From the NCBI RefSeq assembly GCF_000426665.1, contig NZ_AUFU01000002.1, forward strand, positions 62,001-126,000: a stretch of 64,000 nucleotides of DNA, given 5' to 3'. A model generated the notes under the pieces. The model had not been told where the DNA came from. It made no database searches and saw only the letters and a list, made by a program, of their open reading frames with translations. Positions within the stretch are counted from its first letter, which is position 1; each line of letters opens with the position of its first letter. The position numbers and the translations under genes are program-made. Source of the DNA: Centipeda artemidis DSM 19719. Lineage in GTDB: Bacteria > Bacillota > Negativicutes > Selenomonadales > Selenomonadaceae. Shown piece by piece: positions 43,008 through 51,617 of the stretch.

Positions 43008-43673
43008 TTATTTTTTACGATAGATGATCGGGCTGCGTCCGAGGTACTCAAACGGTGCGCTCAGGCAGTGCACGAGACGTGTGAACGGAAAGAGAATCGC
43101 GACTGCCATCCAACAGAACATGTGAATGCGGAACATGAGCGGCACATTCTCCATGTATTCAATCTGCGGGTTCAGCATGAGTACGGAGCGGAACCACGGC
43201 GAGATGGTCTCGCGGTAGTCAAATCCGCCCTGCACAGCGTTGAGCATCGTCGATGCGCAGCCGGTGAAGATCGCGGCAAAGAGGAAGAGATAGAGCCACT
43301 TGTCCATCGTCGAGGTGTTCACCGCCATGCGGTCTTTGCCAAAGCGGCGGATCAGCAGCAGGATAAAGCCGCCGAAGAACAGCAGTCCTGCGGGGGCACC
43401 GCCGCCGAGGGCGATCATGTGGTAGAGATGTTCGTTGATGCCCACCGCCTCCGTTATAAATTTCGGGATGAGCACGCCGATGACATGACCGCCGAACGCC
43501 ATGACGAGCCCCAAATGGAACATGGGCCCCGCGATCTTGAGGTCGCTCTTCGAGAGGAACTGACTCGACTTCGTTGTCCAGTTGCGTTCGAACACCGTAT
43601 AGCGCACGATTGTCCCCACGATGAGGAACGTGAACGCAATATAGGGGAGCACTCCCCATGCGAATTGTTTCAT
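43008..43673 (-). CDS. narI: Respiratory nitrate reductase gamma subunit (cytochrome b)
   Basis: A 221-residue membrane cytochrome b that takes electrons from quinol and anchors NarGH. About five hydrophobic helices are visible. The four haem-ligand histidines are His53 (MFHLG), His63 (GGHVIG), His184 (FRIHMFC) and His202 (RLVHCLS). Their 10- and 18-residue spacings equal those of E. coli NarI (56/66 and 187/205). The start overlaps the narJ stop by 4 bp. Confidence 0.96.
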   Translation of the reverse strand: MKQFAWGVLPYIAFTFLIVGTIVRYTVFERNWTTKSSQFLSKSDLKIAGPMFHLGLVMAFGGHVIGVLIPKFITEAVGINEHLYHMIALGGGAPAGLLFFGGFILLLIRRFGKDRMAVNTSTMDKWLYLFLFAAIFTGCASTMLNAVQGGFDYRETISPWFRSVLMLNPQIEYMENVPLMFRIHMFCWMAVAILFPFTRLVHCLSAPFEYLGRSPIIYRKK

Positions 43674-44206
43674 GATGCGGACCTCCCTATGAGACTTGCG
43701 GCTTCGGTGAGCACGACGTCAATCAAAAACGCATACGGGAGCTTTGCCTCGATCAGCCGATCCCGCAGGAGCTCCATCTTTGGACGCACCTGCGAAAGGA
43801 TATACTCGGCACGCTCCTCGGGTACCGCCGCCGCAAGCTCTAGGATCGCCGGCAGATAGTCCGGCAGCTCGCGGTCAATATCGAATCCGCTGTCAAGGAA
43901 GAGCTGCTTATACGCGAGCATCTCCTCGGACTGCTTCCCAAAATCCGTGCGGTTATGCGTCGTGAGGTAAAGATTCGTGTTCTGTGAAAAGTCAAAGGTA
44001 CGCACATAGGCGTCCTCGAACTCCCGGCGATCGCTCTCCACCACATACTCAAAGAACTCCGTCAGTACTTCGCGCGTCTGCGGACGCTCCACTTCGCGCG
44101 CCGCTTCGGCGTAATCGAGCAGATTCGTCCACCAATCCTCGGTGGGATATTCGAAAAGATACGCCGTGAGCATCAGTTCTTTTTGGATGCGGTTTGCCGT
44201 CTCCAT
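43670..44206 (-). CDS. narJ: Nitrate reductase assembly chaperone NarJ
   Basis: A 178-residue cytoplasmic chaperone of the TorD/NarJ family that inserts the molybdenum cofactor into NarG. It begins METANRIQKELMLTAYLFEY. The typical segment YVRTFDFSQNTNLYLTTHNR lies in the middle. The ATG at 44206 lies 9 nt after GGGAGG and shares one base with the narH stop (TGATG), so I do not use the upstream 44227 start. Confidence 0.93.
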   Translation of the reverse strand: METANRIQKELMLTAYLFEYPTEDWWTNLLDYAEAAREVERPQTREVLTEFFEYVVESDRREFEDAYVRTFDFSQNTNLYLTTHNRTDFGKQSEEMLAYKQLFLDSGFDIDRELPDYLPAILELAAAVPEERAEYILSQVRPKMELLRDRLIEAKLPYAFLIDVVLTEAASLIGRSAS

Positions 44207-45627
44207 CAGCAGCATCCTCCCGGACATGCATAGCCTGTCGTTCCTTGCAGTTCGCGCAGTTTCTCATCCGCAACGCCCGCGACGCCTGCGGGGATGTTGA
44301 ACCGATCCCTGCGTTTGGCAAGGCCGAGCAAGCGGTACATCGCGTCATAGGTCTCTATCGGGAATGCGAGGCTTTCGGGAACGGCATCGCCCGTCTGTTT
44401 TGCGCGCATGACAGCGCGGAGTTCGAGCATGACGTGCAGGACGCGCTCGATCGCCGCCGTGTCCCCCGCCGTGAGGAGCTGCGCGAGGTATGCCACGGGG
44501 ATGCGCATCTCCGCCGCCCCGGGGAAGAATACCTCCTCCTCCACGCGCCGCGCAATGGGGCTAAGGGGCGGGACATACCAAATATTCGGGAGTGTGCGGT
44601 ACTCCGGATGGAGCGGGAACGCAAGCCGCCATTCCCTGATGAGGCGGTACGAGGGCGAATCCTGCGCCGCACGAATCCAGCGCGGCGGAATGCCCGCCTC
44701 CTTTGCCGCCGTAACAACCTGCGGATCGTTCGGGTCACAGATGACCTCCATGAGCTTATTGTAAATCTCTTTCGGATCCGTGACGCTCGCGGCTTCCTTC
44801 ACGCGGTCGGCATCGTAGAAGATGACGCCGAGGTAGCGCATCCGCCCGACGCAGCCGTCGCTGCACACCGTCGGCAGACCGTTCTCAAGACGCGGGAAGC
44901 ACAGCGTGCATTTCTCCGCCTTGTTCGTCTCCCAGTTGTAGTAAATTTTCTTATACGGGCAGGACGGTACACAGTGCCGCCATCCGCGACAGCCGTCCTG
45001 CGAGATGAGGACAACGCCGTCCTCATCGCGCTTGTAGATCGCACCCGAAGGGCACGCTGCAACGCACGCAGGGTTGAGGCAGTGGTTGCAGAGACGCGGG
45101 AGATGCTTCATAAAGATGTCGTGGAACTCGAGCGTGATCTCCTGTCCGATTTTTTGCAGGTTGATGTCGCGGCGTGCCGACTGCCCGTCCGCGAGGTCGT
45201 CCTCCCAGTTCGGCCCCCACTTGATCTCCATCCGCTTCTGCGTGATGAGCGAGCGCGGGCGCGCGACGGGCTGATGATTCTTCCGCTTGGAGTGGAGGAG
45301 CGTCTCGTAGTCGTACGTCCACGGCTCATAGTAATCGTCCATCTCAGGCTGCTGCGGATGGTAGAACAGCTTGGCAAGACGGCTGACCATCGAGCCGGTC
45401 GCGAGCGAGAGCTTGCCGTCCTTCAGCGTCCAGCCGCCCTTCCACTTCTCCTGGTTCTCCCATTCTTTGGGATAGCCGATGCCCGGCTTTGTCTCGACGT
45501 TGTTGAAATACATGTACTCCGCGCCGCGGCGGTTCGTCCACACATTCTTGCACAGGATGGAGCAAGTGTGGCAGCCGATGCATTTGTCGAGATTCATGAC
45601 CATCGCAATCTGCGCTTTAATCTTCAA
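44206..45627 (-). CDS. narH: Respiratory nitrate reductase beta subunit (Fe-S)
   Basis: A 473-residue Fe-S electron-transfer subunit. The first cluster motif, Cys16-x2-Cys19-x2-Cys22-x3-Cys26 (CIGCHTCSILC), has E. coli numbering. CNHCLNPACVAACPSG forms the second. In CRGWRHCVPSCPYKK a tryptophan replaces one cysteine, as expected for the 3Fe-4S cluster of NarH. It starts at TTG, 9 nt after GGAGG, and overlaps the narG 3' end by 11 bp. Confidence 0.97.
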   Translation of the reverse strand: MKIKAQIAMVMNLDKCIGCHTCSILCKNVWTNRRGAEYMYFNNVETKPGIGYPKEWENQEKWKGGWTLKDGKLSLATGSMVSRLAKLFYHPQQPEMDDYYEPWTYDYETLLHSKRKNHQPVARPRSLITQKRMEIKWGPNWEDDLADGQSARRDINLQKIGQEITLEFHDIFMKHLPRLCNHCLNPACVAACPSGAIYKRDEDGVVLISQDGCRGWRHCVPSCPYKKIYYNWETNKAEKCTLCFPRLENGLPTVCSDGCVGRMRYLGVIFYDADRVKEAASVTDPKEIYNKLMEVICDPNDPQVVTAAKEAGIPPRWIRAAQDSPSYRLIREWRLAFPLHPEYRTLPNIWYVPPLSPIARRVEEEVFFPGAAEMRIPVAYLAQLLTAGDTAAIERVLHVMLELRAVMRAKQTGDAVPESLAFPIETYDAMYRLLGLAKRRDRFNIPAGVAGVADEKLRELQGTTGYACPGGCC

Positions 45628-48600
45628 GCCAATCTACCTCCTCCATGCGGCGCACGACGACATACGAGTCGCGCTGATTTCCCGTCGGGCCGTAGTAGTT
45701 AAATCCGTAGCTGAGCTGCCCGTAGCCGCCGATGAGGTGGGTGGGCTTCATGTGGATATGCGTCGGCGTGTTGTGGGTTCCTGCGCGTGTGCCCGAGATC
45801 TTCGACCCCGGGACGTTGATGTGGCGATCCTGCGCATGGTGCATGAACACCGCGCCCTGCGGGATGCGCGGCGAGACGACGACACGCGAGGCGACGACGC
45901 CGTTGCGGTTATAGAGTTCGATCCAGTCGTTGTCCTTCACGCCGATCTCCGCCGCGTCCTTCTCGCTCATCCACACGCTCTGTCCTCCGCGGAACATCGT
46001 GAGCATCTGCTGCGCGTCGAAGTACATGCTGTGCGTACTCCACTTGTTATGCGGCGTCAGATATTTCAGCGTGATTTCTTTCTGCGTCCCGTTCAGGGAT
46101 TTGTTCATCGGACGAAAGTCGAGAATCGGGCGGTAGATCGCCTGCGCCTCGCCGAACTCGCGCATGACCTCGTGATCCATGTAGAAATGCTGCCGCCCCG
46201 TCAGCGTACGGAACGGAACGAGTTCCTCCACGTTGGTCGTAAACGGCGTATAGCGGCGGTTCTGATTGCTGCCCGTAAAGGTCGGCGCCGTGATGGTCTG
46301 ACGCGGCTGCGCAATGACTTTATCATAGGTAAAGCGATCTTCTTCGCGATCCTTTGCGAGGCGGACGAGATTCGTCAGCCCCGTGCGCTTTTCGACCGCT
46401 TCCCACGCGCGCACCGCCGTGCGCCCGTTCGTCGTCGGCGACATCCCGAGCACCGCCTCGATCGCCTGCCGCGCCTCGTAGATGGAGGGCATCCCGTAGG
46501 AAACATAATCTTTGTTCTGGATCACGCCGTTGCGCGCGCGCACTTCTTCGTAGTCTTCCGCCGAGTCCCACGTGTTACCGTGGCTCGCCGTCTTGCCTGC
46601 GGCGTTCGGACCGAGCGCGATCCACTTTTCGTAGAGCTTCGTGTAGTCGATGATATTCTGCGCGATATTCGGCATCGTCTTGCCGGGGATCGGCTCGCAC
46701 TCGCCCTTGCTCCAGTCGCGCACGATGCCGTCCGGCTGTGCCAGCTCGGTCTCGTTATCATGTCCAAGCGGCGTTGCCACAACGTTCGTGTAGGGCTTGA
46801 GGTTTGCTTCCTTGGCAACCTTTGATACCGTCTCCGCAAGCGTGCGGTAGATGTCCCAGTCCGTTCGCGACTCCCAGAGCGGATCGACCGCAGGCTGGAA
46901 CGGATGGACAAAGGGATGCATATCCGTAGAGGAAAGATCTGTCTTTTCATACCACGTTGCCGTCGGCAGAACAATGTCGGAATAGAGCGCGTTGCCCGCC
47001 ATGCGGAAATCGAGCGCGACGAGGAGGTCGAGCTTGCCCTCGAGCGATCCGCCCGGCTGCGCCAGCTCCTCCTTCTCCCGCCATTTGATTTCCCGCGGGT
47101 GTTCTTTCGCATCTTCCTCTTGGAAAATGCTATTCTCCGTGCCGAGGAGATATTTCAGGAAGTAATCGTTGCCTTTTGCCGACGAACCGAGCAGATTACA
47201 GCGCCAGACAAAGAGGTTGCGTGGGAAATTCTCGGGAGCGTCCGGATCCTCCCATGCGAATTTGAGGCTCTTGTCCTTGAGGCTCTTGACGATGTAGTCC
47301 TTGACCCCGTCAAGTCCTTCGCCGCCTGCGGCGGCGGCTTCGTCGGCGATCTGCTGACCGCCCTTGTTGAACGTCGGATAGGCGGGCGCCCAGCCAAGAC
47401 GCGCCGCGAGGATTGCATAGTCGCCGGGATGCGTATAGCGCGCCGTTTCGTTCGGCGCCGCAAGTGCGTCTGCCTGGATCTCGTCGCTGCGCCACTGATT
47501 CGTCGCAAAGTAATAGAACGACGTGGAGTTGAGCAACTTCGGCGGTCCCTGCCAGTCCGAGCCCGACATGATGCGCGCCCAACCTTCGTTCGGGCGCAAC
47601 TTCTCCTGCCCGACGTAATGCGCCCAGCCGCCGCCGTTGCGTCCCTCACAGCCCGTGAAGAGCAGGAGGTTGATGATCGTGCGGTACACGACATCCGCAT
47701 GGAACCAGTGGTTGATGCCGCCGCCCATGATGATCATGCTGCGGCCGTTCGTCTTGATCGCGTTGTCCGCAAGCTCGCGCGCCGTATGGATGACGAGTTC
47801 AGGCGAGATGCCCGTGTACTTCTCTTGCCACGCGGGCGTATAGGGCGTGTCGTCCTCATAGGAGCCGGCGCTCTCGCCGCCGAGACCGCGGTCGATCGCA
47901 TAGTTCGCAAGCGTGAGGTCGTAGACCGTCGTCACGAGCACCTCCCCGTGCGCCGTCTTGACGCGGCGTACGGGGAGCGCGCGCGTAAGCGTCCGCTTTG
48001 CGCGGTCGTTGCCGAAATACGGCAGCTCGACCTTGACCGTATCCGTGCGATCGTCCCACACGGAGAGACGCGGGCAAATCTCCGCACCCGTGTCGCGGTT
48101 TTCTTCTTTGATATTCCATTTTTCCTGCGTGCTCCAACGCTCGGCAAGCGTCCCGTTCGGGATGACGATCTCGCCGGTTTTGTCGTCGACGACGTAGTAG
48201 CGGAAGTCCGCGTGCTTTTCATCGCGCCCCATGTCGCGCGAGCTGAGCATACGCCCGGGAACGTAGCCGCCGTTTCGCTCCTCGATGCGCACGAGAAACG
48301 GGAAATCCGTATACTTGCGTGTATACTCGAGAAAGAACGGCACCGTTTTATCGATATAGTATTCCTTCAGGATCACATGCCCCATCGCCATCGCCATCGC
48401 GGAGTCGCTGCCGACCTTCAGCGAGATCCATGTGTCGGCAAACATCGACGACTCGGCATAGTCCGGCGCGATGGAAACGACCTTCGTCCCTTTATAGCGT
48501 ACCTCCGCCATGAAATGGGCGTCCGGCGTCCGCGTCAGAGGCACGTTCGAGCCCCATGTGATGAGATAGCCCGCGTTGTACCAGTCGCTCGACTCCGGCA

Positions 48601-49309
48601 CATCCGTCTGCTCGCCCCAGATCTGCGGACTCGCAGGCGGCAGATCGGCGTACCAGTCGTAGAACGAAAGCCCCACACCGCCCATGAGCTGCATGAAGCG
48701 AATGCCCGCCGCATAGCTCAGCATGGACATCGCAGGGATGACCGAGAACCCGAAGATGCGGTCGGGGCCGTAGGTGTACGCCGTATAGAGTACCGAGGAC
48801 GCGATCAGCTCCGAGACTTCTTCCCACGTTGCGCGCACAAAGCCGCCCATCCCGCGGGCTTCCTTATATTTCTTCTGCTTCACAGGATCGGAGGCGATGC
48901 TCTTCCACGCGTCGAACGCCGTCTTGTGCTTGGCGCGCGCCTCGCGCCACAGCACTGCGAGTTCGCCGCGCATATAGGGATATTTTACGCGATGCGGGCT
49001 ATACAGATACCACGAGAACGTCGTCCCGCGCGGACAGCCGCGCGGCTCAAAATCCGGCATATCCGGCGCGGTCTCCGGATAGTCCGTCGCTTGGTTCTCC
49101 CACGCGACGATGCCGTTCTTCACATGCACATTCCAGCTGCACGAGCCGGTACAGTTCACGCCGTGCGTCGTTCGGACAGTCTTGTCGAACGACCAGCGGT
49201 CGCGGTACATGTTCTCCCAGTCCCGTCCGCCCTCGTGCATCTCCTGATGCCCGTCTGCGGATACCGATGTGGGGACAAGATACTTGAACTTCTGAAAAAT
49301 ACTATGCAC
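45617..49309 (-). CDS. narG: Respiratory nitrate reductase alpha subunit (Mo-bis-MGD)
   Basis: A 1230-residue catalytic subunit that reduces nitrate to nitrite. The FS0 cluster ligands His49, Cys53, Cys57 (HGVNCTGSC) and Cys92 (RGCPRG) fall at exactly the E. coli positions, as does the molybdenum ligand Asp222 in FYDWYADLPPASPQ. No twin-arginine signal is evident; the N-terminus is MHSIFQKFKYLVP, as in cytoplasm-facing NarG. The start is GTG, 8 nt after AGGAGG. The Fnr box and -10 lie upstream at 49378-49420. Confidence 0.98.
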   Translation of the reverse strand: MHSIFQKFKYLVPTSVSADGHQEMHEGGRDWENMYRDRWSFDKTVRTTHGVNCTGSCSWNVHVKNGIVAWENQATDYPETAPDMPDFEPRGCPRGTTFSWYLYSPHRVKYPYMRGELAVLWREARAKHKTAFDAWKSIASDPVKQKKYKEARGMGGFVRATWEEVSELIASSVLYTAYTYGPDRIFGFSVIPAMSMLSYAAGIRFMQLMGGVGLSFYDWYADLPPASPQIWGEQTDVPESSDWYNAGYLITWGSNVPLTRTPDAHFMAEVRYKGTKVVSIAPDYAESSMFADTWISLKVGSDSAMAMAMGHVILKEYYIDKTVPFFLEYTRKYTDFPFLVRIEERNGGYVPGRMLSSRDMGRDEKHADFRYYVVDDKTGEIVIPNGTLAERWSTQEKWNIKEENRDTGAEICPRLSVWDDRTDTVKVELPYFGNDRAKRTLTRALPVRRVKTAHGEVLVTTVYDLTLANYAIDRGLGGESAGSYEDDTPYTPAWQEKYTGISPELVIHTARELADNAIKTNGRSMIIMGGGINHWFHADVVYRTIINLLLFTGCEGRNGGGWAHYVGQEKLRPNEGWARIMSGSDWQGPPKLLNSTSFYYFATNQWRSDEIQADALAAPNETARYTHPGDYAILAARLGWAPAYPTFNKGGQQIADEAAAAGGEGLDGVKDYIVKSLKDKSLKFAWEDPDAPENFPRNLFVWRCNLLGSSAKGNDYFLKYLLGTENSIFQEEDAKEHPREIKWREKEELAQPGGSLEGKLDLLVALDFRMAGNALYSDIVLPTATWYEKTDLSSTDMHPFVHPFQPAVDPLWESRTDWDIYRTLAETVSKVAKEANLKPYTNVVATPLGHDNETELAQPDGIVRDWSKGECEPIPGKTMPNIAQNIIDYTKLYEKWIALGPNAAGKTASHGNTWDSAEDYEEVRARNGVIQNKDYVSYGMPSIYEARQAIEAVLGMSPTTNGRTAVRAWEAVEKRTGLTNLVRLAKDREEDRFTYDKVIAQPRQTITAPTFTGSNQNRRYTPFTTNVEELVPFRTLTGRQHFYMDHEVMREFGEAQAIYRPILDFRPMNKSLNGTQKEITLKYLTPHNKWSTHSMYFDAQQMLTMFRGGQSVWMSEKDAAEIGVKDNDWIELYNRNGVVASRVVVSPRIPQGAVFMHHAQDRHINVPGSKISGTRAGTHNTPTHIHMKPTHLIGGYGQLSYGFNYYGPTGNQRDSYVVVRRMEEVDWLED

Positions 49310-49377: not shown

Positions 49378-49420
49378 AGTGTAACAAAAAAAAATCGCCT
49401 TTCCTGTGACATATCTCACA
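49378..49420 (-). promoter_or_regulatory. Fnr-dependent promoter of narGHJI
   Basis: The minus strand carries TGTGA-GATATG-TCACA (49405-49420), a perfect Fnr/Crp-type palindrome. A -10-like TACACT (49378-49383) starts exactly 37 nt from the start of the box, which puts the box centre at -41.5, the class II activator position. There is no -35 match, as expected for activated promoters. An overlapping TACAAT at 49373-49378 is an alternative -10. Confidence 0.75.
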
Positions 49421-49430
49421 AAAAAGGCGT
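49395..49430 (-). terminator. Terminator of fnr, formed around the narG Fnr box
   Basis: On the minus strand CGCCTTT and AAAGGCG pair, with the TGTGA/TCACA palindrome as an inner stem, followed by nine T after an A (49386-49394). It follows the fnr stop by about 40 bp. Confidence 0.7.
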
Positions 49431-49467
49431 TATTATCAATTTTTTCTATCTCACCTATCAAGTTTTT

Positions 49468-50145
49468 TTATTCAATGATGCAATCCTCTGCGCCGCAGCT
49501 CTCACAGCGCACCTCCCGGCGCAAATATTCCATATTCCGCAGAAAGATAAAGCTGCCGCGATAAGCGATGATACCGTCGCGCTTCATCTCGCTCAGCAGC
49601 CGGTTCAGGCTCTCTCGCGACATCGCCGAATAATCCGCCAGCTCCTGATTCGTCATCTCCAATGGAATCAAGACCCCGCCGTCCTCCTCGCGCCCGTAAC
49701 TGTTCGCCATGCGAATCAGCGTCGAATAGACGGCGCCCTTTTTCCCATAGAGGAGCAGGTCACGGAATTTATGATGCTGCTTTCGCATGTGTTTCGCCAT
49801 GATCTTGAGCATATTGACGGCAAGCTGCGGATGCTCCTCGAGGCTGTGCTCAAGCACAGGGTACTCGATCGCGTAGACTTCCGCCGCCGTCTTTGCGATG
49901 GCATCAAAAATATAGACACGGCGCTTTTGATAGAGCGGCAGCTCCCCGATGACGCTTCCCTGATGCGCGAGCCGGAGCGAGAGGACACGCCCCGAATCGG
50001 CACTTTTGGAAATACGGATTTGACCGCTGTGAACGAAGTAAAAATACTTCGCCGCGCCGCCCTCGTGAAAAAGGTATTCGTTTTTATGCAGTGATACGAT
50101 TCTTCCCGGTACTTCATAAAACGGCTGTACCAACGCATCCGGCAT
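49468..50145 (-). CDS. fnr: Fnr, oxygen-sensing Crp/Fnr-family regulator (Bacillus type)
   Basis: A 225-residue regulator. A cNMP-like beta-barrel (LHKNEYLFHEGGAAKYFYFV) leads to the dimer helix and a C-terminal helix-turn-helix, TNQELADYSAMSRESLNRLL (about 165-184). The tail has Cys214-x2-Cys217-x4-Cys222 (CESCGAEDC). B. subtilis Fnr binds its [4Fe-4S] cluster with three C-terminal cysteines in this same spacing plus Asp141; here Asp129 in KFRDLLLYGKKG lies at nearly the same distance (85 against 86 residues). The N-terminal cysteines of E. coli FNR are absent. I start at the ATG at 50145, 6 nt after GGAGGA. Boxes on both sides suggest it activates narG and narK. Confidence 0.88.
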   Translation of the reverse strand: MPDALVQPFYEVPGRIVSLHKNEYLFHEGGAAKYFYFVHSGQIRISKSADSGRVLSLRLAHQGSVIGELPLYQKRRVYIFDAIAKTAAEVYAIEYPVLEHSLEEHPQLAVNMLKIMAKHMRKQHHKFRDLLLYGKKGAVYSTLIRMANSYGREEDGGVLIPLEMTNQELADYSAMSRESLNRLLSEMKRDGIIAYRGSFIFLRNMEYLRREVRCESCGAEDCIIE

Positions 50146-50186
50146 GTCCATTCCTCCAAAAAGTCTTCGCATTCAGATGGCAGTAT

Positions 50187-50229
50187 TGTGAGAAACATCA
50201 CATACAGATATAGTTTTTCGTTATATACT
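50187..50229 (+). promoter_or_regulatory. Fnr-dependent promoter of narK
   Basis: TGTGA-GAAACA-TCACA (50187-50202) is followed by TATACT (50224-50229) starting exactly 37 nt from the start of the box. The box centre is therefore at -41.5 relative to a start at 50236. The geometry equals that of the narG promoter. The box also lies 42 bp upstream of the divergent fnr start and could affect fnr itself. Confidence 0.8.
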
Positions 50230-50294: not shown

Positions 50295-51617
50295 TTGAGC
50301 GCACAAGCGTATACCTCGCGCAGCGAAATTTTGGCGCATTGGAATCCGGAGGATACGGATTTTTGGAAGCGTTACGGCGAGCGCATTGCCAAGCGCAACC
50401 TCTACACATCGACGTGGGCGCTGACCCTCGCCTTCGTTGCATGGACGATGTGGGCAACGATTGCCGCACAGCTCAATCAGATCGGATTCCACTTTACTGA
50501 TAACGAAATCTTTACACTCGCAGCTCTTCCGGGTCTCGTCGGCGCGACGGGACGGCTCGTCTACACCTATATGCCCGCCATCGTCGGCGGCCGCAACTGG
50601 ACGCTCTTTTCCACCGCACTCCTGCTGATCCCGCTCATCGGACTCGGCAACGCCGTCACCAACACCGCGACGACCTATGACGAATTCGTCGTGCTCGTCG
50701 CCATGATCGGTATTGCGGGCGCGAACTTCTCCTCGTCGATGGCAAATATCGGTTTCTTCTTCCCGAAATCAGAGAAGGGACTTGCGCTCGGCATCAACGC
50801 CGGCATCGGCAACCTCGGCGTCTCTATCATCTACCTCACCGCGCCGTTCCTGCTCGGCATGGGCTTTGGCGGACTCTTCGGTGCGCCGCTCATCAATGCT
50901 GCAGGAAAAGAGGTCTATGTGCAGAGCGTCTGCTATTTCTGGGCAATCCCGACCGCGCTGACGCTCGTCCTCGTGTGGCTCTTCATGGACAATCTGCCCA
51001 TCCCGCGCCAAAGTCCACGAAGCATGATGTCCATCTTTGGCAATAAACACACATGGCTGATTACAGTCATCTACACCTGCGGCTTTGGTTCCTTCATTGG
51101 TTACTCCGCCGCCCTGGCACTGCTCCTCAACCGTGAGTTCCCGGAGATTTCATTCGCCTACGGCGCGTTCCTCGGCCCCTTCATCGGCGCGAGCGTACGC
51201 CCCATCGGCGGCTGGGCGGCGGACAAGCTCAACAGCGGCTCCATCGTCACCTTTGGCGGACTCGTACTTATGCTCGTCGCCTGCATCGTCACCGTTCTCG
51301 CCATCGAGATGCATAATTTCGCCCTATTCTTCGGCGCTTTCCTCGTCCTCTTCTTCTCGACGGGCTTCATCAACGGTGCTTCGTTCCGCATGATTCCCTT
51401 CGTCTTTGAGAATCCGGTACATGCTTCACTCGTCACGGGCTTCACCGCGGCGATCGCCGCCTACGGCGCTTTCTTCATTCCGAAACTCTTCGGCTACTCC
51501 TATGCCACATACCAGAATGTCGCGCCCGCGTTCTACTACCTTATCGGATTCACCGTCGTTACCATCATCATCACGTGGGTGTTCTACGCCCGCAAAGGTT
51601 CCGGCATCAAGTGCTGA
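50295..51617 (+). CDS. narK: Nitrate/nitrite transporter NarK (MFS)
   Basis: A 440-residue inner-membrane transporter of the nitrate-nitrite porter family, with about 12 hydrophobic helices. Signature stretches are GGRNWTLFSTALLLIPLIGL and AGANFSSSMANIGFFFPKSE, with the Ala/Gly-rich GINAGIGNLGVS. It begins at TTG, 9 nt after AAAGGAG. It brings in nitrate and/or exports nitrite for the adjacent NarGHI. It is divergent from fnr and has its own Fnr-type promoter and a terminator. Confidence 0.95.
   Translation: MSAQAYTSRSEILAHWNPEDTDFWKRYGERIAKRNLYTSTWALTLAFVAWTMWATIAAQLNQIGFHFTDNEIFTLAALPGLVGATGRLVYTYMPAIVGGRNWTLFSTALLLIPLIGLGNAVTNTATTYDEFVVLVAMIGIAGANFSSSMANIGFFFPKSEKGLALGINAGIGNLGVSIIYLTAPFLLGMGFGGLFGAPLINAAGKEVYVQSVCYFWAIPTALTLVLVWLFMDNLPIPRQSPRSMMSIFGNKHTWLITVIYTCGFGSFIGYSAALALLLNREFPEISFAYGAFLGPFIGASVRPIGGWAADKLNSGSIVTFGGLVLMLVACIVTVLAIEMHNFALFFGAFLVLFFSTGFINGASFRMIPFVFENPVHASLVTGFTAAIAAYGAFFIPKLFGYSYATYQNVAPAFYYLIGFTVVTIIITWVFYARKGSGIKC

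Follow-up and report, generated by a model that had tools for sequence, protein, structure and literature searches.

Oral bacteria reduce nitrate, and the locus described here raises the question of which regulator controls the nitrate genes of a Selenomonas-like member of this group, and from which sites. In the window, a stretch of 64,000 nucleotides within an analysed genome of 2.35 Mb, the minus strand carries fnr, narG, narH, narJ and narI in that order, and narK is divergent from fnr. The original prediction held that two Fnr promoters of the same geometry flank fnr, so that sensor and targets would form a self-contained, compact module. An Rfam scan of the entire window returned one tRNA and nothing else. 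The genes concerned are the following:

43008 to 43673, minus strand: narI (TIGR00351 above cut-off)
43670 to 44227, minus strand: narJ (TIGR00684 above cut-off)
44206 to 45627, minus strand: narH (TIGR01660 above cut-off)
45617 to 49309, minus strand: narG, nitrate reductase alpha (TIGR01580 above cut-off)
49468 to 50145, minus strand: fnr, Bacillus-type Crp/Fnr regulator with C-terminal CESCGAEDC, start ATG at 50145
50295 to 51617, plus strand: narK-type nitrate/nitrite MFS transporter (best models NarU/NarK, below their cut-offs; MFS_1)

The start of fnr was set at this ATG because GGAGG stands 7 nt before it. Its product passes the Pfam cut-offs of PF00027 (cNMP_binding), PF13545 and PF00325, indicating a cNMP-binding domain and a Crp-type HTH, and passes none of the NCBIfam cut-offs. 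The enteric Fnr model reaches 42.1 bits against a cut-off of 228 and the three cysteines of the protein are C-terminal, which sets it apart from enteric FNR. The terminal CESCGAEDC has the pattern CX2CX4C, and its Cys215, Cys218 and Cys223 are invariant in all eight aligned Fnr proteins, as are Asp130 and the stretch R178-E179-S180-L181-N182-R183. The same three elements (CX2CX4C, Asp and RE...R) are found in five of five Bacillota copies, taken from three genomes, at 33-42% identity. According to the available text of PMC3520743, the ligands of the Bacillus Fnr cluster are CX2CX4C and an Asp; this spacing stands in its discussion, and its background gives a last spacing of 3 for B. cereus. 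As far as the available texts go, B. subtilis Fnr carries a C-terminal cluster with CX2CX4C plus Asp (PMC3520743, PMC8139620), and its cysteine pattern is the one seen here. D130 precedes the first cysteine by 85 residues, against 86 by the numbering given in part of PMC3520743 (Asp141, B. subtilis), a comparison of numbers and not of aligned residues. R and E at the two recognition positions (R180 and E181) correlate with site positions G3 and A6, and an orthologue of B. subtilis Fnr was assigned a CRP-like motif, according to the available portion of PMC1274295. The identification of the protein as a putative Bacillus-type Fnr is well supported by its cysteines, its recognition-helix residues and their conservation.

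This Fnr is 56-58% identical to those of its genus mates, which include Selenomonas infelix, S. noxia (G085), S. flueggei and Centipeda periodontii (G116), and the Fnr proteins of the mates are 82-100% identical to one another. The corresponding values are 85-88% and 86-100% for narK, and 90% (over the compared stretch) and 92-100% for narG. A xenologous origin of fnr was considered: when 27 chosen rows were placed on a tree, the clade uniting this copy with those of the mates was not rejected (p-AU 0.11), so that the divergence of fnr may reflect either replacement or fast evolution.

The elements of the two predicted promoters are:

49378 to 49383, minus strand: narG -10-like hexamer TACACT, 21 nt from the box; predicted start 49371
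49405 to 49420, minus strand: narG Fnr box TGTGAGATATGTCACA, perfect TGTGA-N6-TCACA, centred at -41.5
50187 to 50202, plus strand: Fnr box TGTGAGAAACATCACA between narK and fnr, perfect TGTGA-N6-TCACA, centred at -41.5 of narK
50224 to 50229, plus strand: narK -10-like hexamer TATACT, 21 nt from the box; predicted start 50236

On re-reading the sequence, both boxes, both 21-nt spacers (GGAAAGGCGATTTTTTTTTGT at narG and TACAGATATAGTTTTTCGTTA at narK) and both hexamers proved exactly as originally described, and a box position of -41.5, computed from the sequence, leads to the same two starts that had been proposed. The narG hexamer has two mismatches to TATAAT. With the box at -41.5 relative to the -10 and the start, sequence and conservation place both predicted promoters in class II. 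At class II promoters of E. coli FNR the activator is centred at this same position, and sites of B. subtilis Fnr also lie at -41.5 positions. The cysteines of E. coli FNR are N-terminal and its site is TTGAT-N4-ATCAA, whereas here the cysteines are C-terminal and the site is TGTGA-N6-TCACA.

A genome scan for this site, suggested along with the original prediction, yielded three perfect boxes, two of them at this locus, as opposed to none in the reversed control. When TAnnnT at 21 nt was also required, the narG and narK boxes were the only ones genome-wide, again with none in the reversed control. When both intergenic stretches were shuffled by mononucleotides, 200,000 times each, perfect boxes appeared at a frequency of about 1.2e-4. 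If one mismatch is allowed, the window still holds only two boxes (both perfect), a count that is not unusual, being reached by 33 of 100 shuffles. Conservation in the genus is the strongest evidence for the predicted boxes and is decisive. The genus survey covered 14 genomes, with fnr in 13 and narG in 13, and one genome (G008) is without both. All 13 genomes having narK/fnr carry upstream of narK a perfect box that is followed at 21 nt by TAnnnT, and the same holds for narG in 13 of 13 genomes having it. In the genus, TANNNT occurs also at 16 nt (12/13) and at 29 nt (10/13) from the narG box and at 23 nt (9/13) from the narK box; these other offsets at narG make the choice of the 21-nt hexamer ambiguous within the genus. 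At narG we chose 21 nt because other genera favour it and because the window fits 21 alone among 16, 21 and 29. Those other genera, which belong to the same family, contributed 32 loci; a box with no more than one mismatch is present at narK in 17 of them and at narG in 6, and TANNNT stands at 21 nt from six of the six narG boxes (next best offset, 1/6) and 13 of the 17 narK boxes. The other 15 loci yielded no such narK box, partly because narK or its upstream DNA is unreadable there. The count comprises L069-L100, that is 32 of 42 loci; L101-L110, mostly copies from genus mates, were left out, and with them L102 and L109, which are not such copies.

Both narGHJI and narK are very likely direct targets of a Bacillus-type Fnr that activates them from class II sites. 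From the boxes, their spacing and conservation, the hairpin described below and the gene identities, all read in the sequence, we infer an Fe-S cluster, binding, activation and termination, as follows. The product of fnr would be a [4Fe-4S] Fnr of Bacillus type, which binds both TGTGA-N6-TCACA boxes when oxygen is absent; bound Fnr would activate narGHJI and narK from -41.5; and the DNA of the narG box, transcribed as the end of fnr, would form the hairpin of the fnr terminator, with the T-tract serving as promoter spacer. We give this reading, including the double role of the narG box, a probability of roughly 0.85. In B. subtilis, narGHJI is under Fnr according to the available text of PMC8139620, and narGHJI is a predicted Fnr target here too. 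The same text has B. subtilis fnr co-transcribed with narK, whereas in the window the two genes point away from each other and the end of fnr falls within the narG promoter.

What the original prediction overlooked is that the predicted terminator of fnr has the narG box at its core. This terminator consists of two parts:

49386 to 49394, minus strand: T9 tract of the terminator, within the narG box-to--10 spacer (from sequence)
49396 to 49429, minus strand: predicted intrinsic fnr terminator hairpin with 14-bp stem and 6-nt loop, the narG Fnr box forming its apex; -21 kcal/mol

The stem of 14 pairs, six of them GC, is followed by ATTTTTTTTT, in which one A separates the stem from nine T, and this is the sequence pattern of a predicted intrinsic terminator. 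The hairpin has a z of -5.7, and none of 200 shuffles was equally stable. The stem reaches nine pairs (G-T allowed) past the narG box, compared with 0-3 pairs in 48 other boxes, namely 13 narK boxes of the genus (that of the window included), the 12 other narG boxes of the genus, and 17 narK and six narG boxes of other genera. Since the T-run sits in the spacer between the box and TACACT, termination there would place the end of the fnr RNA some 15-23 nt upstream of the predicted narG start. In none of the 12 genus mates is the narG box covered by a terminator-like stem, and the overlap at narG is therefore peculiar to this genome among those examined. In five loci of other genera, narG lies right behind fnr (L002, L003, L006, L013 and L024), and there, judged by eye, the T-run hairpin is separate and upstream of the box; the locus L021/L093, with two small frames between fnr and narG, was excluded from this group. 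As a palindromic operator is already half a hairpin, a terminator built on the narG operator, with fnr and narG adjacent, would save space, and this saving is most likely the meaning of the overlap. A literature search of partial coverage turned up no recognised example of operators inside terminators arranged in this way. DNA uptake sequences in terminator stems are a case of a recognition sequence doubling as part of a terminator; here, in contrast, the second signal would be an activator site belonging to the promoter of the gene that follows.

A similar architecture was found at mop (molbindin), reached via perfect sites in G107 and G116 and located in the window's own genome at C15:51127. 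The gene is present in 13 of the 14 genus genomes and was not found in G085; that of G120 was reported as two overlapping pieces (L176/L177). Each of these 13 genomes has a palindrome 57-62 nt upstream of the mop ATG (GTGA-N6-TCAC in 11, ATGA-N6-TCAT in two). TANNNT follows it at 21 nt in 12 of them; in the genome of the window the distance is 22 nt. The mop hairpin beats all 200 shuffles in 11 of 13 genomes, the own genome included (z -5.4 to -8.5), and is weaker in G078 (z -2.4) and absent in G116 (z -0.3). At least four consecutive T stand behind the box in nine genomes, all among these 11; a co-oriented gene ends just upstream of the palindrome in 11 of 13, and eight of 13 sites pass a stricter stem-plus-T test. 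Among species the outer stems vary in sequence and keep their complementarity, as seen in single folds, on which the claim of a mop hairpin is based. A consensus fold of the 13 hairpins retains eight pairs, two of them with two-sided changes, and its alignment fails to line up stems of unequal length. The own genome has 38 GTGA-N6-TCAC places, against 12 in the reversed control. A first, lax stem count over them was replaced by a stricter one, by which only narG and mop combine a stem of at least 10 pairs, T's behind it and TANNNT at 21-22 nt. In the own genome, the mop palindrome and the terminator-like hairpin around it, directly before mop, fall within C15:50980-51333 (L175/L212). Another of the 38 places, with TATCAT at 21 nt, overlaps the beginning of a gene that by eye encodes an NADH-dehydrogenase-like flavoprotein (L049/L196, C6:63612-63654).

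The picture of a self-contained compact module stood only in part. The predicted Fnr identity, the class II geometry and the two targets are supported; against it, narG lies apart from fnr in 12 mates and mop has a similar box. Whereas this genome and all 12 fnr-bearing mates have fnr right beside narK and its box, narG is adjacent to fnr in none of the 12. The fnr-narG distance is about 7-8 kb in four mates, about 13 kb in one and 0.3-1.5 Mb in five, and in two the genes are on separate contigs; in three of the four mates at 7-8 kb, those that were read, narGHJI lies on the far side of narK. The narG box is retained in the mates although the surroundings of narG differ. The narG of G085 (L065) was reported with an in-frame TAG. 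On the fnr side of the narK box, TANNNT occurs at 21 nt in 11 of the 12 mates (L027-L038). Spaced in this way on both sides, one box could drive narK and fnr in those mates. This fnr-side -10 is missing in the window, where the position reads GACTTT and the box lies 41 nt from the fnr ATG.

Matches with up to two mismatches numbered 16 + 16 places, versus 11 + 8 in the reversed control, so that they were not accepted as members of the regulon. A candidate of the own genome before a moeA-like operon (L145, C1:239673-239715; one mismatch, TATAAT at 21 nt) was unproven: 11 mates have no box with at most one mismatch there, and for the twelfth (L162) no start of the gene could be located. This operon and a gene that by eye is moaC-like are divergent. 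G107 and G085 have perfect class II matches near a gene that by eye is enolase-like; these had no clear same-strand target and were set aside. A stretch of the own genome resembling a CRISPR array lies at about C4:53150-53570 (L048), where the translation repeats the same words and is partly masked.

The genome encodes four proteins that pass the HTH_Crp_2 cut-off, Fnr and three other Crp/Fnr proteins, and the boxes might be read mainly by one of the others, with Fnr in a minor role. The protein at C3:49556, with the helix AREVVSR, could read TGTGA too. Moreover, G008 retains the mop palindrome and hairpin without fnr or narG, so that a protein other than Fnr could read the mop box; if the box is read in that genome, something else must read it, and the palindrome might be kept there as a terminator alone. 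However, the joint absence of fnr and narG in G008 and the place of fnr beside narK and its box in every fnr-bearing genome argue against another main reader, which we consider improbable.

Two further explanations concern the overlap at narG. The palindrome might persist only as a terminator, with narG expressed by read-through from fnr. The 14-bp stem with its T9, the imperfect narG -10 and the common direction of fnr and narG would agree with this. Yet terminators have no need of the letters TGTGA and TCACA, a strong terminator opposes read-through, and the box keeps its perfect sequence and its exact 21-nt distance to TACACT, like the boxes of the 12 mates, which no hairpin covers; we regard a mere terminator as very improbable. 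Conversely, the hairpin might not work as a terminator, the flanking complementarity having arisen by chance, as could be supposed from its occurrence at narG in a single genome and from the A between stem and T-run. Nine pairs beyond the box where 48 others have at most three, the T9 that follows, and the shuffles that never fold as well make such a coincidence just as hard to accept. We thus keep to an Fnr site that would double as the fnr terminator.

A more speculative idea is that operator, terminator and spacer are fused so that the polymerase ending fnr, released 15-23 nt upstream of the narG start and beside a box that can be occupied by Fnr, would need active Fnr to be handed on to the promoter of narG, the synthesis of the sensor priming its main target. 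We consider this unlikely. It builds on a possibility stated in the available text of PMC6978322, that a sense promoter near an intrinsic terminator may be fed by the polymerase that has just terminated; single-molecule work has described re-initiation at nearby promoters (PMC6978380, in its available part). Here the activator site would lie inside the terminator, and the available portions of these two reports mention no such site. If the idea were true, the fused element would be a recurring device and not an accident, given the comparable layout at mop in most of the genus.

At the sequence level, this locus is a clear case of a Bacillus-type Fnr circuit in Selenomonas-like mouth bacteria. 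The circuit is of a known kind; the narG arrangement is non-standard, unusual and worth an experiment. With two unrelated genes of a single genome each preceded by an activator site within a predicted intrinsic terminator, these bacteria would offer a natural test case for retained polymerase feeding an adjacent regulated promoter, the possibility raised in the available text of PMC6978322.
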